Made by a program: the position numbers and the translations under genes. Below are positions 29,000-36,301 of a stretch of 64,000 nt of DNA, piece by piece. The stretch's first letter is position 1. Each line of letters starts with the position of its first letter. Location: assembly GCF_904846605.1 (NCBI RefSeq), contig NZ_CAJHBI010000010.1, positions 1-64,000 on the forward strand, read 5' to 3'. The notes beneath the pieces are model-generated. The model searched no databases and was not told where the DNA came from. It saw only the letters and a list, made by a program, of their open reading frames with translations. The DNA comes from Psychrobacter sp. 72-O-c (GTDB lineage: Bacteria > Pseudomonadota > Gammaproteobacteria > Pseudomonadales > Moraxellaceae).

Positions 29000-30262
29000 A
29001 TGATAAAGTATTTAGGGTACGTAAGCGTCGCAAAAACTCGAGCCAAAGTGTTGGGTGCGGTTACTCGCCTAATTCCCATGCCAAGACCGCTGCTATTCGT
29101 AGGCGAGCAGGCGTGCGATGAGCTGTGCGATATGCTCATTAATGAAGGCAGCACTCATGTATTTATCGTCACTGATGCCGTTCTAAATAAGCTGGGTGTG
29201 CCCTCAAAAGTTACCGACTATCTGGATCAAAAAAATATCCGCTATCAAGTCTATGATGGCATTACTCCTGATCCAACTTCTAAAGTGATTGAAGAGGGAC
29301 TGGCGCATTCGGTTGAAGCTAAATGCGATGCGGTGATAGGGATAGGTGGCGGGTCGGTGATTGATGCTGCCAAAATGATTGCCATGTGCCAAGGTAATGA
29401 TTGCAAGCCGAAGCAGCTTATCGGCCTTTTTAAAGCTAAAAAACCGTGCTTGCCACTATACTGCATTCCTACTACGGCTGGCACAGGCTCAGAGGCGACC
29501 ATAGGTGCGGTAGTATCGGACGATAAAACCCATCAAAAAGCCATCGCTATTGATCCAAAAATGGTGCCACGGGCAGCCGCTATCGATCCAACAATCATGA
29601 AAGGTATGCCACCGCATATTACGGCTGATACCGGTATTGATGTACTCACTCATGCTTTAGAGGCATGAGTGAGCGTGAATGCTACTGCGGAGACCGACTA
29701 CTATGCGGCCTCTGCTGTCAAAGTCGTAATGAAATATCTACCGATGGCTTATAAGGATGGTGACAACCTAAAAGCCCGAGAAGAGATGGGTATGGCTGCT
29801 CATTATGGCGGTATTGCTTTAAACAAAGCGGGGCTTGGTTATGTCCATGCTATCGCTCATCAGTTGGGTGCGTATCATGGCACGCCGCACGGGCGCGCCA
29901 ATGCCATCGTACTGCCTTATATACTTGAGCTCAACCGTAAAGCCAGTGAGAAACGACTGGCAGCGCTGGCAAGAAAGATTGGGGTTGTAAAGAGTAGCCA
30001 AGCCAATGATGGCGATGTAGCGGATCAGCTTATTACTCAAGTAAAAATTTTGCTGGAAACTGTGGGCATCGATCCTATTGTTAAAGATATGCAAACAAGT
30101 AATTTTGATAGTATGGCAAAAGCCGCTGCCAAGGAAGTTAGCGATACTTATGCCGTCCCAGCCTATATGAATGGCGCAGGCATTAAAGATATCTTAATGA
30201 AAATAAAAACGGCGAGTGACAAGGCTATTAAGGAAAAATCAGTTAGTAAACAAGCCTCATAA
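29000..30262 (+). pseudogene. iron-containing alcohol dehydrogenase, interrupted by one in-frame TGA
   Basis: Residues 1-222 and the following 197 residues form one continuous group III alcohol dehydrogenase (about 420 aa). Visible are GIGGGSVIDAAKMIA (NAD binding), the metal ligands Asp and His in DTGIDVLTHALEA, then His in HAIAHQLGAYHGTPHG. A TGA at 29666-29668 replaces the Tyr that usually follows LTHALEA; the reading frame does not change. The TGA sits in the right arm of a perfect 11-bp inverted repeat (29645-29655 and 29663-29673). Re-initiation at the GTG directly after the stop would give only the metal-binding half, so activity is unlikely. The intact enzyme would oxidise an alcohol to an aldehyde, possibly feeding the fatty-acid pathway. 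Confidence 0.88.
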
Positions 30263-31936: not shown

Positions 31937-32319
31937 AAACCATCCTAAAAAAAGAGCAAGAGTGCAAAATCTGGCAGAGGTTGCCACTATCAAGGGGTGG
32001 GTAGTATTATTTAATGAGTAATGTTATCTAGTGAGTAATATTAACTAAATAAGAGAATTTAAATAATAAGGGTTAATAAAAAGTTAACAAGAAGAGAGTG
32101 GGGATAACTAAGGTGGTTATAATAGTATGCCTGATTGCTGAATAAGTTGTTGTTATTTAGCAGGGTATTCTTATTATTTTGACATTACTGTGATTTAGGT
32201 GTGACAGTTACGAGTAAGGGCTACTGATAGCGGGTCGATGGGGATAGTAATAAGTGATGATTAAGGAAGATGAGGCGCAAAAACATTATATTGCGAAGTG
32301 TGAAGGTAAGCTTGTAAAA
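31937..32319. other. gene-free upstream region of the methyltransferase
   Basis: About 380 bp of AT-rich DNA. Only a 24-codon frame (32257-32331) is open and it runs into the terminator, so I do not call it. No promoter is clear. Confidence 0.5.
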
Positions 32320-32350
32320 AAGTGCGCCTAACAGCAAGCAAGACGCACTT
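32320..32350 (-). terminator. Rho-independent terminator of the roadblock/PAS cluster
   Basis: AAGTGCG and CGCACTT form a perfect 7-bp stem with a 17-base loop, followed by a T-run on the minus strand, 26 bp beyond the last gene of the cluster. Confidence 0.75.
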
Positions 32351-32375: not shown

Positions 32376-32999
32376 TTAACTGGCAAAACGCAGACCGGAT
32401 GTTTTTAGTGCCCAAACCAGCTCAACAAAGGCACGATTATTGGTTAGTGGCTCACCATCGATAATGATAGCGTAGCCCGCCCCATCAATCCATAAAAAAA
32501 CAAAGCTGGTTTCAGGAATCAGTAAATCGACTTGCTGAAAGAATGAGATCGCTTGGCTCTCTACTGACCAGCCGCGTTGCTTTTGACGCAACATAAAACC
32601 TGAGAAGTCAGCGGCGGCGACACACAGCATGTCTGCTTCTTCTTGGCTGTAGCCAATCCGTGCCAAGCAAAACCCTTCATCGGAAGCAATCGCAGCGCGT
32701 CGATTACCTGATAAGCTTGACACCACATAAGGCAAAAACTGATCCAACGGTAGGTTAGGAGCCGGTAAAAATATCGATAGCTTCTCAATCCAGCCTTGTT
32801 CTAAAAAGTCTTCTAGCCATTTATCAGAATAAGTCTCTAACCAATTAGCAGCAAGCATGGTCTCTTGGTGTGACAGTAAGACTTGTAGTGATAGCTGCTG
32901 ATCAGTAGGTTCGTTTTGTGAAAACGCTTCAAAGATACCTGCTGGGGTTAAGGTAAGATAGGTTTTATCGACATTTAAGTAAGACATAGCGGCTACCAT
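32376..32999 (-). CDS. unknown protein with a possible divergent roadblock/LC7 domain
   Basis: A 207-aa cytosolic protein I do not recognise as a named family. The N-terminal half is helical and acidic (LSLQVLLSHQETMLAANWLETYSDKWLEDFLEQGWI). From about residue 105, RRAAIASDEGFCLARIGYSQEEADMLCVAAADFSGFMLRQ resembles in spacing and hydrophobic pattern the roadblock protein at 35345 (SALISNDGLMIASALPSGIDEDRVGAMSAALLSLGDRAGRE). The end FVFLWIDGAGYAIIIDGEPL could be the matching beta strands. Last gene of the cluster. ATG 32987 is an equally good start; neither has a clear Shine-Dalgarno. Confidence 0.7.
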   Translation of the reverse strand: MVAAMSYLNVDKTYLTLTPAGIFEAFSQNEPTDQQLSLQVLLSHQETMLAANWLETYSDKWLEDFLEQGWIEKLSIFLPAPNLPLDQFLPYVVSSLSGNRRAAIASDEGFCLARIGYSQEEADMLCVAAADFSGFMLRQKQRGWSVESQAISFFQQVDLLIPETSFVFLWIDGAGYAIIIDGEPLTNNRAFVELVWALKTSGLRFAS

Positions 33000-33042
33000 T
33001 CATATAAAGTTTTATAGTGAACTTCTTTAATAAAGTTATCAT

Positions 33043-33660
33043 CTATCCTTTGACAGTTTGGTCAAGGCTTTGCTGGCAATTATTCCAGCGCTCATCGAAC
33101 TGCCAGTCACTTTTGCCCAAGCGAAACCAGACGATAGAAAAGGCCAAACGATCATTGCGAGCAACACAGTGGGAGAAAAACTCATTTTCGATTTGCTCAA
33201 TCGTGTTCCAGTTCTCGTTATCGCGCGCCATCATAAGCTCAGCTGTGATATCTTTGGCAATTTCCTTAGCATCGTCACTGCTGATACGTAGTCGCTGCGT
33301 TTGCTCGTTTAATGAGGGTGTTACCAGTACGCTCCAACGGGTTGCAAGCACACTGCTGTGTTGAATGTAAGCTAGCTTATTAATACAGTCGCGAAAAGCT
33401 AGTTCAACATGGGGGTGCAAGCGTCCTTGAATACGAGTAAACATATTGGTAACGTCATAAGGAATGTCATACCAGCAGCCATAAAAGAAGTCAGCTACCG
33501 CACCTTGTAAAGGCTCTTTTTCACTAAGAAGCAATGCTGCATTAATACGTTGTTCGTGAAAATGACGATTATTCGGCGCCAAAAATATTTTGCGCGAGTA
33601 CACGCGAAACAATCGGCGGGCTACCATTTCACTTTCTTTAATAAGCGTTAAGTCACTCAT
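33043..33660 (-). CDS. unknown protein of the roadblock/PAS cluster
   Basis: A 205-aa soluble protein without a signal peptide. I do not recognise it. Notable features are a basic N-terminus (RRLFRVYSRKIFLAPNNRHFHEQRINAALLLSEKEPL), an aromatic middle (ADFFYGCWYDIPYDVTNMF) and an acidic helical stretch (SDDAKEIAKDITAELMMARDNENWNTIEQIENEFF). It lies between the PhnD-like gene and the second unknown gene on the same strand with no terminator between, so it is probably co-transcribed and works with them. Confidence 0.7.
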   Translation of the reverse strand: MSDLTLIKESEMVARRLFRVYSRKIFLAPNNRHFHEQRINAALLLSEKEPLQGAVADFFYGCWYDIPYDVTNMFTRIQGRLHPHVELAFRDCINKLAYIQHSSVLATRWSVLVTPSLNEQTQRLRISSDDAKEIAKDITAELMMARDNENWNTIEQIENEFFSHCVARNDRLAFSIVWFRLGKSDWQFDERWNNCQQSLDQTVKG

Positions 33661-33780
33661 AAGAGTATCTCTGAGGTCATAGTCAACAGTACTGTTTGTA
33701 AAGCTTTCAGCGTCAGCAGGTTGAAAAAATAAGAGGGCAGGCGTCCATCAAGATAGTAGCCAAGATGCTAATTAAAATTG

Positions 33781-34536
33781 CTAATCAAGTAAGGTTTCCA
33801 TCAAATCTATCATGAATTCGGCATCTTCTTCGCTCATGGGCTCAAAGCCTTGCGGGATACCCAGCTCAGCGAGTGCTTCTTTACCGTCATCATCGTTATG
33901 AAAAGCAAGAATCGCATCCGTTAAAGCCACCGCATCGGCAACATTTTCTTTAATCAAGAGTACGTGGCTGATATCCGCTAAATCACTTTCTATCAGTACT
34001 GATAGCTGAGTTTTAGTCAAGCGTGAAAAGCTATGGAATATTTCTGCTAAAAAGAACGCTACTTGAGCATCGCCCTTGATAACTTTTCTCGCGGCTGCTT
34101 GATAATTTTCAGTCACGTCCCAGTTTAGATCTGCTTCTTCTAAATCAACGGCCTCAAGCAATCTTAGCCCGATAAGTTTGACGTCACGGTTGTCTGCCAT
34201 CGCCACGGTAGCACCATTAGTAATATCTTCTAAGCTGTTGATATCGCTACTCGCAGACGCGGCAATAACCATCTCGTCAGATTTTCCGATGGGACGGGCG
34301 ATAGCACGATAGCCTTGTTCACGTATTAATTCAGCGGCATCAAATGGATTGGCATAAATAATATGCACATTACCGGCTTTGATCAGATCTTCTTGTTCAG
34401 CAGAAGAGGTAGGCGTGTTTAAATGCATATGAATGTCAGCACGCTTCTGAATTAAGGTGTTGAACATATGCCAACCTGCAAAACGCTCAGGCGAAAAATC
34501 AGGGGCGATTAATAGGTTATACATTGGTTCACTCAT
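33781..34536 (-). CDS. PhnD-like substrate-binding fold protein without signal peptide
   Basis: A 251-aa protein of the phosphate/phosphite/phosphonate-binding (PhnD-like, type II periplasmic binding) fold: NLLIAPDFSPERFAGWHMFNTLIQKRADIHMHL, VHIIYANPFDAAELIREQGYRAIARP, LEDITNGATVAMADN and AQVAFFLAEIFHSF. Unlike transporter components it has no signal peptide or lipobox, and no permease or ATPase is nearby. It begins 3 bases after the PAS gene stop, with AAGG upstream, so the two are translationally linked. A cytosolic ligand sensor feeding the PAS/roadblock proteins is plausible (inference). Confidence 0.78.
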   Translation of the reverse strand: MSEPMYNLLIAPDFSPERFAGWHMFNTLIQKRADIHMHLNTPTSSAEQEDLIKAGNVHIIYANPFDAAELIREQGYRAIARPIGKSDEMVIAASASSDINSLEDITNGATVAMADNRDVKLIGLRLLEAVDLEEADLNWDVTENYQAAARKVIKGDAQVAFFLAEIFHSFSRLTKTQLSVLIESDLADISHVLLIKENVADAVALTDAILAFHNDDDGKEALAELGIPQGFEPMSEEDAEFMIDLMETLLD

Positions 34537-34539
34537 GAT

Positions 34540-35034
34540 TTAACCTTCCTCATTCTGTTTCATTTCAGCATACTGGGCAATAGCCGCCTCTATCTTGCTA
34601 CGCGATGGCTTACGGCGGACCGAGGTATAGCCAACTGTTTCGCCGCGACGAACATTAGGAACGATGGTTGCATAGACCCAATAATGACTGCCATCTTTGC
34701 ACAAGTTTTTGACATAGCCATGCCATTTTTGGCCAGACTCTGCGGTATCCCACAAGTCCTTATAGGCAGCTTTTGGCATATCAGGATGGCGTAAAATATA
34801 ATGCTGTTTACCGATTAATTCACCTCGATCATAACCACTGATTTCTATAAAAGCATCATTCACGTGCGTGAGGACACCGTCTAGATCGGTACGCGAGACA
34901 ATGAGCTTGCCGTCTGGATAGGGCCGTTCGATACCAGTATCATAAACAGTTCGTGAAGTTCCATCTTGATAAGTCAATGTGACTTGCTCAGCTGTCGTAT
35001 CCGGCTGATTGGCATCAGGGAGTGGAGAACCCAT
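34540..35034 (-). CDS. stand-alone PAS domain protein (aerotaxis-type)
   Basis: A 164-aa protein built around one PAS domain (about residues 40-140) of the type at the N-terminus of Aer receptors: LIVSRTDLDGVLTHVNDAFIEISGYDRGELIGKQHYILRHPDMPKAAYKDLWDT, then KWHGYVKNLCKDGSHYWVYATIVP. Such domains bind FAD or sense redox or energy state. There is no kinase, methyl-accepting or GGDEF output domain, so its output must be through partners. AAGGAG precedes the ATG. It lies between the roadblock gene (310 bp upstream) and the PhnD-like gene (3 bases downstream). Confidence 0.85.
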   Translation of the reverse strand: MGSPLPDANQPDTTAEQVTLTYQDGTSRTVYDTGIERPYPDGKLIVSRTDLDGVLTHVNDAFIEISGYDRGELIGKQHYILRHPDMPKAAYKDLWDTAESGQKWHGYVKNLCKDGSHYWVYATIVPNVRRGETVGYTSVRRKPSRSKIEAAIAQYAEMKQNEEG

Positions 35035-35344
35035 AGTAATCTCCTTTATTTATCGTTGTAATCATTAACATTAAAGAACTGGATTAGAGTCATAAACCTA
35101 AGAACATGTTTCGATATGAGCAATATATTGCTAGTGTTTATTACTCATCAACCTTAGCTTACTCACATGTACTGAGGGGCAAAGTCTTTAATACCCGTCA
35201 GTCTGTATTGGCTCATTAAAATCATACAGCATGTATGGCCTCAACTAATCTTTATAAGACAGCTGATAGTTTTTCATTTAAGCTGCTTATAAAACAAGCA
35301 AGATTAGTAAGTAAATTATAGAAAGCAGCTGATAGAGTCACTGA
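35035..35344. other. leader between roadblock and PAS genes
   Basis: About 310 AT-rich bases with no gene. Its length suggests an extra promoter for the PAS and downstream genes, but I see no distinct motif. Confidence 0.45.
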
Positions 35345-35707
35345 TTAGATAAGTTTTGCTAGGGCTTCTGAGGCGCGCTTGATGTCCAAGAATATCAAGC
35401 CGAGCTTAGCATTCGGTTTTGCCATAATGGTCAGTACCGCTTCATCACCTGATGAGGTCATGATGACATAGCCTTTCTCGCCTTGAATCATAATACGATC
35501 AATACTACCGCGCGCCAGCTCACGCCCAGCACGGTCCCCTAGTGATAGTAGGGCAGCTGACATCGCGCCAACGCGGTCTTCATCAATGCCGGAAGGAAGT
35601 GCTGAGGCAATCATAAGGCCATCGTTAGAAATTAGGGCCGACGCCTCAACGTCTGATGATGAGCTGTTTAAGTCTTCCAATATCTGTTGGAATGAGTCTG
35701 TACGCAT
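35345..35707 (-). CDS. roadblock/LC7 domain protein
   Basis: A 120-aa protein that is entirely one roadblock/LC7 domain: MRTDSFQQILEDLNSSSSDVEASALISNDGLMIASALPSGIDEDRVGAMSAALLSLGDRAGREL, then IMIQGEKGYVIMTSSGDEAVLTIMAKPNAKLGLIFLDIKRASEAL. Such proteins dimerise and, as in MglB, regulate small Ras-like GTPases or act as scaffolds. No MglA-type GTPase gene lies in the window. AGAGA precedes the ATG. First gene of a minus-strand cluster with PAS, PhnD-like and two unknown proteins. Confidence 0.88.
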   Translation of the reverse strand: MRTDSFQQILEDLNSSSSDVEASALISNDGLMIASALPSGIDEDRVGAMSAALLSLGDRAGRELARGSIDRIMIQGEKGYVIMTSSGDEAVLTIMAKPNAKLGLIFLDIKRASEALAKLI

Positions 35708-36301
35708 ATCGCTGTCTCTATAACTGGTTATTGAATAATAAAAAATGTCTATTTATGACACTTAAATTATGGTGCTTAAATTACGACCTTTAAAAATAGC
35801 GGTGTTTCAAGACGCCCTATTGTAATTCCTTACTCTCTATATTGATATAAGATTCTCTACTTGAGAAGCAAATAGTAGGGATTTTTGCTACTTCAGATCT
35901 ATTTTAGCCTTTTATCTGGTATTGGCATTATTTTAATCTACTAAAGTCTGCCAATTATAAATAGTACCTGTCGTCTGTAAAAGTAACTATTTATAGCTAA
36001 TGACATTAATGTTGCGATATGGGCTTGATTTTTTTTATCATCAGGGTAAGTTAAACAGACAAAGTCAATTATCTGACTTTTAAGCGCACGCTAAATACCA
36101 TTCTCTACCTTGTGTCTGTTATATCATCCGTCATATCATTGAGTGAGATGGACATTCGTTAGCCTTCGACACCCTCAAAATGACATACAGATATGATCTA
36201 AAAGCTACTTCGCCTGTTAGAGGCACAATCAGTTGGCTTTCAATCCCATTCGTTTTTATACCTAAAACGACCACAATTTCTACCTTCTTTAAGGAAGATA
36301 T
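35708..36301. other. long intergenic region between the roadblock gene and gdhA
   Basis: About 594 bp between divergent genes. Only a 78-codon minus-strand frame (36131-36367) is open; it overlaps the gdhA start and has no protein-like character, so I do not call it. Promoters for both neighbours must lie here; none is distinct to the eye. Confidence 0.5.

Follow-up and report, generated by a model that had tools for sequence, protein, structure and literature searches.

The window analysed here is a 64,000-nucleotide stretch of Psychrobacter sp. 72-O-c (contig NZ_CAJHBI010000010.1), and the feature under study, at positions 32376-35707, is filled by five open reading frames, all on the minus strand: robl (35345-35707), encoding a MglB-like single roadblock/LC7 protein of 120 amino acids; a gene for a single-domain, Aer-like PAS protein (34540-35034; 164 amino acids); a gene for a PhnD-like protein (33781-34536; 251 amino acids); u205 (33043-33660; 205 amino acids); and u207 (32376-32999; 207 amino acids). 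Directly past the last stop codon lies a terminator-like hairpin (32313-32350, minus strand), in which a stem of 10 pairs precedes a U run (z -3.0; 1 of 200 shuffled sequences folds equally well); it is absent from the output of a simple consensus terminator scan. This layout bears out the original prediction, which had described five co-oriented genes with a terminator behind the last one, combining roadblock/LC7, aerotaxis-type PAS and leaderless PhnD-like proteins with two unknown proteins, and the three domain assignments held as well. Also as predicted, none of the five proteins matches a kinase, cyclase, transporter or GTPase in Pfam or NCBIfam, and the idea of a cytosolic sensor/scaffold set is supported. 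The claim that the cluster is undescribed and matches no named system did not survive: by descent it is very probably a derivative of the Group 3 MglA/MglB system, whose complete form has been published (PMC4316618).

Two of the five products are predicted roadblock proteins. For robl, the assignment comes from a Pfam match to Robl_LC7 (PF03259, 4e-18) and from a family profile that retrieves 7f8m (2e-32), 9jue (2e-23), CvnB5 (6e-12) and MglB (3e-5) from the PDB; the protein is 63% identical to robl of a complete operon from another family (L091). Neither u207 nor u205 has a Pfam or NCBIfam match above cut-off, and to this extent the two were rightly called unknown. The window's u207 alone falls below Pfam detection (a Robl_LC7 search of the window's genome returns one protein, u207 escaping the model), and 17 of 26 u207 relatives match PF03259 at E<=0.1, the best at 2e-4. 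Searched against the PDB, u207 profiles reach the roadblock protein CvnB5 (7e-5) and LAMTOR5 (0.01). The AlphaFold model (pLDDT 86, pTM 0.81) has a small N-terminal alpha/beta region followed by a C-terminal roadblock domain (residues 82-206; 32382-32756), and its top Foldseek rows are roadblock, MglB and Ragulator chains, at E 0.013 or worse. Nearly all VIA-align rows are of roadblock or Rag/longin type, including MglB 6hjm_A (Z 7.9, 106 residues, root-mean-square deviation 3.1) and the Streptomyces roadblock protein 3kye (Z 7.7, 103 residues, deviation 3.5), although according to the tool a Z below 8 can reflect a common arrangement. Because a profile-profile comparison of u207 with robl (hhalign) came out empty (probability 1%), the assignment is based instead on the PDB profiles and the model. 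On these grounds u207 is a predicted second roadblock protein, and the locus would thus have the 'two MglB' form.

The other protein left unnamed by the original prediction, u205, is a predicted relative of the TPR-like proteins that head the complete operon described below. A profile that draws on relatives from beyond the family reaches the window protein at 1e-7 and finds 35 of the 37 family-set loci, and TPR_19 or TPR_14 is matched at E<=0.1 by 14 of 36 aligned members. The window's copy has diverged from the aligned members (11-26% identity) and is modelled as all helix (AlphaFold, pLDDT 87); a fold search gave no significant match. With FimV (4mal), the u205 profile reaches no better than E 0.013, and this match was not used.

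Examination of relatives revealed what the window lacks. A u207 search over 119 family genomes gave 37 matches at E<=0.01, of which 36 (window included) are clear and fall in four genera and one (G040) is spurious; loci of up to 20 kb were fetched for all but the window's own. Among the 36 locus-bearing family genomes, 20 have exactly the five genes, 13 have seven, one has a seven-gene locus truncated by the contig edge, and two show partial deletions. Gene order and strand, whose conservation the original prediction had proposed to check, are identical in all 33 family loci holding the five genes, far above what chance would give. The extra pair, encoding a receiver-like protein of 383-463 amino acids and a small GTPase of 178-213 amino acids (eight loci), sits between u205 and u207, where the window has a 43-bp gap (33000-33042) and 14 family relatives have about 2 kb. 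The seven-gene order (e.g., in Thiothrix, Methylomonas and Methylocaldum) is u205, receiver-like, GTPase, u207, robl, PAS, PhnD. Outside the family, a robl scan found at least 563 relatives; the best 80 loci (L109-L188) comprise 23 with all seven genes, 22 without PAS and PhnD, 27 without the GTPase alone, and 8 that are otherwise composed or cut. In a class-wide sample, robl was detected at E<=1e-20 in 47 of 369 genomes, and the 40 loci taken from it divide into 11 with all seven genes, 15 without PAS and PhnD, and 14 others or cut. The complete set occurs widely in Gammaproteobacteria.

This complete set matches the Group 3 MglA system of a computational survey by Wuichet and Sogaard-Andersen from 2014 (PMC4316618), to judge from the parts of that survey covered here. 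The relatives' GTPases have DAR at G5 (D154 A155 R156) in all 15 aligned sequences, no Lys in G4, and Thr in TPGQ. DAR in G5 and the missing Lys are marks common to MglA Groups 2 and 3 in the covered parts of the survey, and the Thr of TPGQ is a mark of MglA according to a published abstract. For the Group 3 partner protein, the same parts give a predicted receiver-like N-terminus, a variable linker and a winged-helix C-terminus. A profile of the relatives' receiver-like protein places regX3 and other receivers on top in the PDB (best 7e-4), and no Pfam family occurs in more than 1 of its 17 members; the protein fits the published partner by architecture and place alone, and for the receiver-like N-terminus only. 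The window thus retains the conserved gene neighbourhood of Group 3 and, with robl and u207, its one or two MglB proteins, and neither the window nor its genome yielded a GTPase with the DAR G5 and Lys-free G4 or a receiver-like partner. Homology to a characterised system, the finding named in advance as able to overturn the original prediction, thus applies by half: the ancestral system has been described computationally, and the experiments found in the covered portions of the literature concern only Snodgrassella mglB (PMC11112851).

The original prediction had placed the effector elsewhere, perhaps in an MglA-like GTPase. The link to such a GTPase proved real in the ancestral sense that relatives encode one in the operon, but no orphan gene of this type was found in the window's genome: a single GTPase query and a 15-row GTPase profile both returned nothing, PF03029 gave nothing above cut-off, and PF00025 (Arf) matched two frames only, which at 492 and 488 codons are too long to be MglA. 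In control genomes the 15-row profile recovered the orthologue in 4 of 4 cases, two of them contributing rows to the profile (G036 and the L187 genome) and two not (G010 and the L148 genome). A receiver-like query (one sequence) found nothing in the window's genome either, and the gene is gone from the locus across the window's genus (g1).

To trace the GTPase through the history of the operon, we used a quick, unrooted tree of concatenated robl, PAS and PhnD sequences (103 rows: 53 with the GTPase, 48 without, 2 undecided). It requires four changes of GTPase state, at least three of which are forced by starred branches; the changes are placed at the window's genus, at a g7 pair, at a 26-row group with Neptuniibacter, Amphritea and Pontibacterium, and at Halothiobacillus. 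Because the complete form is so widely spread, we infer losses rather than gains. Members of the 26-row group keep an open reading frame where the receiver-like gene sits, and two loci outside the tree (L222 and L225) are also without the GTPase. Within g1, median ratios of nonsynonymous to synonymous differences (pN/pS; 18 sequences, one PAS pair dropped) are 0.027 for robl, 0.105 for PAS, 0.115 for PhnD, 0.159 for u205 and 0.090 for u207. These ratios are approximate, with synonymous positions almost saturated (pS 0.63-0.76), but constraint is evident all the same, and all five remaining genes in the window's genus are, as judged from these comparisons, under strong purifying selection.

Of the remaining gene products, the PAS protein is the candidate for input and the PhnD-like protein for coupling. 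The PAS protein matches PAS_3 (Pfam, 6e-18), and its best solved relative is the PAS domain of E. coli Aer (8dik; E 5e-35, gapless alignment). By spacing, the residues of Aer that handle flavin adenine dinucleotide (FAD), His53, Arg57, His58, Asp60, Asn85 and Arg115, correspond to H78, R82, H83, D85, N110 and R140 of the window protein (roles as given in the covered portions of PMC9668731 and PMC2628428), and the protein is a probable FAD-binding redox or oxygen sensor by this prediction. Its companion shares the PF12974 (Phosphonate-bd) fold with the phosphonate-phosphite binding proteins PhnD and PtxB (Pfam 4e-39, the domain ending at residue 238; best profile match in the PDB PtxB, 2e-6). 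It differs from them in having no hydrophobic leader at its N-terminus (MSEPMYNLLIAPDF..., by eye), no ATP-binding cassette (ABC) gene among the five, a ligand loop that is shorter than PtxB's in the profile alignment, and a conserved C-terminal tail outside the Pfam domain (EFMIDLM[DE]TL; 33790-33828, minus strand). With neither an export signal nor an ABC partner in the cluster, the protein lacks the marks of a PhnD-type solute-binding protein, and the suggestion of a role in phosphate stress, part of the original prediction, is unsupported on these counts and by the short loop. In the tail, columns 237, 240-245 and 248 are invariant over 15 rows, and residues 241-250 form the most conserved ten-residue block across 86 aligned sequences; the tail is a possible docking peptide. 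Because the tail is conserved and the ligand loop shortened, the protein would suit the role of an adaptor better than that of a phosphonate sensor.

The PAS and PhnD-like genes also travel together. Both are present in 52 of the 80 robl loci and in 14 of the 40 class-wide loci; PAS stands without PhnD in 3 of the 80 (L126, which ends at a contig edge, L175 and L178), PhnD never stands without PAS in either set, and the two are never apart in the class-wide loci. A single-domain protoglobin gene lies in or beside the operon at seven loci (L158, L207, L211, L215, L217, L222 and L225), mostly between u207 and robl and also at the GTPase-less L222 (PF11563, 2e-20) and L225, giving a second hint toward oxygen input.

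Several associations, each of them circumstantial, concern the output. A gene for a FimV/HubP-like polar landmark protein occurs just downstream on the same strand in 19 of the 80 robl loci, mostly in Thiotrichaceae (e.g., L136:5287-7086), starting less than about 250 bp from robl in 11 loci and directly after PhnD in 8; 26 of the 80 also have a gene for bactofilin 4.3-5.6 kb upstream of robl, on the opposite strand in 24 (for both names, one representative was checked against family models). Canonical PilT is present in 36 of 36 operon-bearing family genomes vs. 56 of 83 others (Fisher 2e-5, kinship ignored) and, within g1, in 19 of 19 operon-bearing vs. 3 of 7 operon-free genomes (0.002, kinship again ignored). 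In Snodgrassella, an orphan mglB allele alters pilus-dependent motility, as reported in the covered portions of PMC11112851. Together with the protoglobin and the Aer FAD residues, these observations suggest that type IV pili or polarity may be under redox-responsive control. Three of the operon-free g1 genomes (G008, G105 and G111) have a partial PilB match only and no canonical PilT, their pilus motors being apparently degraded. In four g7 genomes, pilT-type genes lie about 7-10 kb from the operon (G006, G033, G042 and G022), as a tandem pair in all but G042.

The reading that we favor, with moderate confidence, is that the cluster derives from the Group 3 MglA/MglB system by loss of the GTPase and that a redox input from PAS and PhnD acts on the roadblock pair to control type IV pili. 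Its observed core is the seven-gene operon of relatives and a window without the GTPase and the receiver-like protein, in which the five other genes are conserved as described above. According to this model, the PAS protein would bind FAD and report the cellular redox or oxygen state, and the PAS/PhnD pair would act on the roadblock pair, with the PhnD tail as the candidate docking peptide. The roadblock complex would then set the activity or the polar placement of type IV pili, and in the window's genome it would do so directly, without a GTP switch; in relatives with the full operon, this input would be directed at the GTPase and the receiver-like protein. That the partner proteins and the probable sensor are kept by selection after loss of the GTPase suggests that the partners can work without it. 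A bolder and much more tentative generalization is that MglB-type roadblock proteins can run signalling without any small GTPase, an Aer-like flavin PAS protein and a PhnD-like adaptor directly switching a roadblock heterocomplex and so gating type IV pili by redox, with the GTPase an optional layer that was dropped independently in several lineages.

A number of observations weigh against this model. Two of the six FAD positions vary among 11 aligned PAS rows, and only these two: position 78 (Aer His53) is Gln in 3 rows, and position 85 (Asp60) has Glu or Gln in 2. A single lineage, Thiotrichaceae and their kin, accounts for the FimV-like and most of the bactofilin neighbors, and in it unrelated genes are also syntenic. 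The threshold that defines canonical PilT (best E<=1e-145) was chosen after the table had been seen. In g10, homologues of both PilT and PilB persist in 11 of the 12 genomes without the operon, so that the PilT association may there reflect a split between two clades and is counted as weak support; an earlier notion that g10 had lost the operon along with its pili was dropped on the same count. One operon-bearing genome (G100, 88% complete) is without canonical PilB. The set can also be lost: 7 of 26 g1 genomes have no locus, G023 retains just u205 and u207 there (three genes gone), and in G033 a single deletion (L036:11100-11650, minus strand) has taken out PAS and fused robl, at its middle, to the final codons of the PhnD-like gene. 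Finally, 10 of the 18 genomes without a GTPase at the locus have another MglA-like GTPase that could substitute.

These last points bear on two other explanations. If the five genes were simply left over after loss of the GTPase and on their way out, with little function, then absence of the locus from part of the genus, the partial deletions in G033 and G023, and the recurrence of GTPase loss in several lineages would all be accounted for. We consider such decay unlikely, since the g1 medians (0.027-0.159) are, gene by gene, below those of GTPase-bearing relatives (a rough comparison, because divergence differs), all five genes are present in 18 g1 loci, window included, and the GTPase-less form is shared by the 26 rows that include Neptuniibacter, Amphritea and Pontibacterium. 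Replacement of the GTPase in trans, such that the roadblock pair is still a GTPase-activating or nucleotide-exchange complex serving another small GTPase, is quite improbable for the window, although the 10 genomes just mentioned speak for it: G088, G102, G070 and G006 encode single-domain MglA-like paralogues (E about 1e-57, vs. <1e-83 for orthologues), and six Neptuniibacter-group genomes have MglA-like frames, the longest of 370 codons. In the remaining eight of the 18, the GTPase profile search gave no match (the window's genome, G074, G051, G118, Motiliproteus G770 and Halothiobacillus G771) or just a 27-codon relic (G033 and G042), and in the window's genome Pfam Arf finds just the two over-long frames. 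Among the Neptuniibacter-group frames, those of G764, G765, G767 and G769 (Neptuniibacter, Pontibacterium, Neptunomonas) contain an MglA-like GTPase domain and are 318-370 codons long, and in the first three they are close neighbors. The 27-codon GTPase-like stretches (G033:C1:1353886-1353954 and G042:C4:10219-10296) contain a stop and are perhaps relics; a genus mate, G006, has the intact paralogue.

Control of transcription rather than of pili, through a protein with receiver and winged helix along the lines suggested for Group 3 by the 2014 survey, would agree with the published fold prediction for the partner (covered parts of PMC4316618) and with the receiver-like N-terminus found in the relatives' protein. 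Because this protein was not found in the window's genome, and is gone from the locus in its genus, it cannot be the output there, and we regard this route as very unlikely. Least credible of all is a free-standing redox or phosphate sensor complex unrelated to motility, the reading nearest to the original prediction: the Aer-like PAS domain and the PhnD-like fold on which it drew are real, but the predicted pair of roadblock proteins, the descent from an MglA operon and the FimV-like and bactofilin neighbors favor polarity or pili, and the ligand loop of the PhnD-like protein is shortened. An anti-phage defence role was dropped, since PADLOC models gave no match to the five proteins at E<=0.01.

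Known systems resemble the GTPase-less Group 3 derivative in part. The Group 3 systems of the 2014 survey (PMC4316618) share with the relatives two roadblock proteins, which the window has as well, and the DAR-G5 GTPase and receiver-like partner, which it lacks; 'PAS' has no occurrence in the survey's main text, and PhnD-like and TPR-like partners are not in its section 18. The Snodgrassella mgl locus (PMC11112851) is of Group 3, with one mglA, two coupled mglB genes and an orphan mglB; unlike the window it has mglA, and PAS or PhnD partners were not seen in the portions of the text covered. In Myxococcus, MglA-MglB-SgmX (covered portions of PMC7519303; Group 1 according to PMC4316618) likewise arranges a roadblock and a TPR protein around a type IV pilus polarity switch, with a GTPase that the window lacks. 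The actinobacterial conservons CvnABCD unite a roadblock protein and an MglA-like GTPase with a sensor in a conserved operon, the sensor being the membrane histidine kinase CvnA (parts of PMC4316618 and PMC13343842), of which Pfam and NCBIfam find none among the window's five proteins. For the PAS protein there is a precedent in the CetA/CetB energy taxis system of Campylobacter, where CetB is likewise an Aer-like PAS protein on its own, with a proposed action in trans (parts of PMC2628428); its partner CetA is of HAMP/chemoreceptor type, whereas the window has roadblock proteins and no chemoreceptor among the five. Searches of open-licence literature gave, among the matches listed, no set of roadblock, PAS and PhnD, no set of roadblock and protoglobin, and no GTPase-less Group 3 locus; one match (PMC3699543) was irrelevant, its mgl, in the part covered, being a galactose transporter. 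The parts are thus ordinary and the ancestral form is known; it is the GTPase-less, sensor-bearing variant that is new.

Bacterial roadblock proteins are regarded as GTPase regulators, and repeated loss of the GTPase from operons whose other members appear to be under strong selection offers a natural test of GTPase-independent roles. The little-studied Group 3 Mgl systems gain a probable input, i.e., a flavin PAS protein or, in some species, a haem protoglobin, and a redox input would tie oxygen or redox sensing to pilus-based surface behavior in many Gammaproteobacteria.

A promoter-like match at 35954-35981, 5' of robl, was not used, the scan returning 15 sites vs. 11.2 +/- 3.2 in shuffled sequences, and an Rfam search of the window gave no match. 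Some family and order genomes contain a second type of GTPase-roadblock gene pair (L093-L108), separate from this operon. Elsewhere in the window, an iron-type alcohol dehydrogenase gene (29000-30262, plus strand; named by eye) is split by an in-frame TGA (29666-29668) into two open reading frames of one frame.

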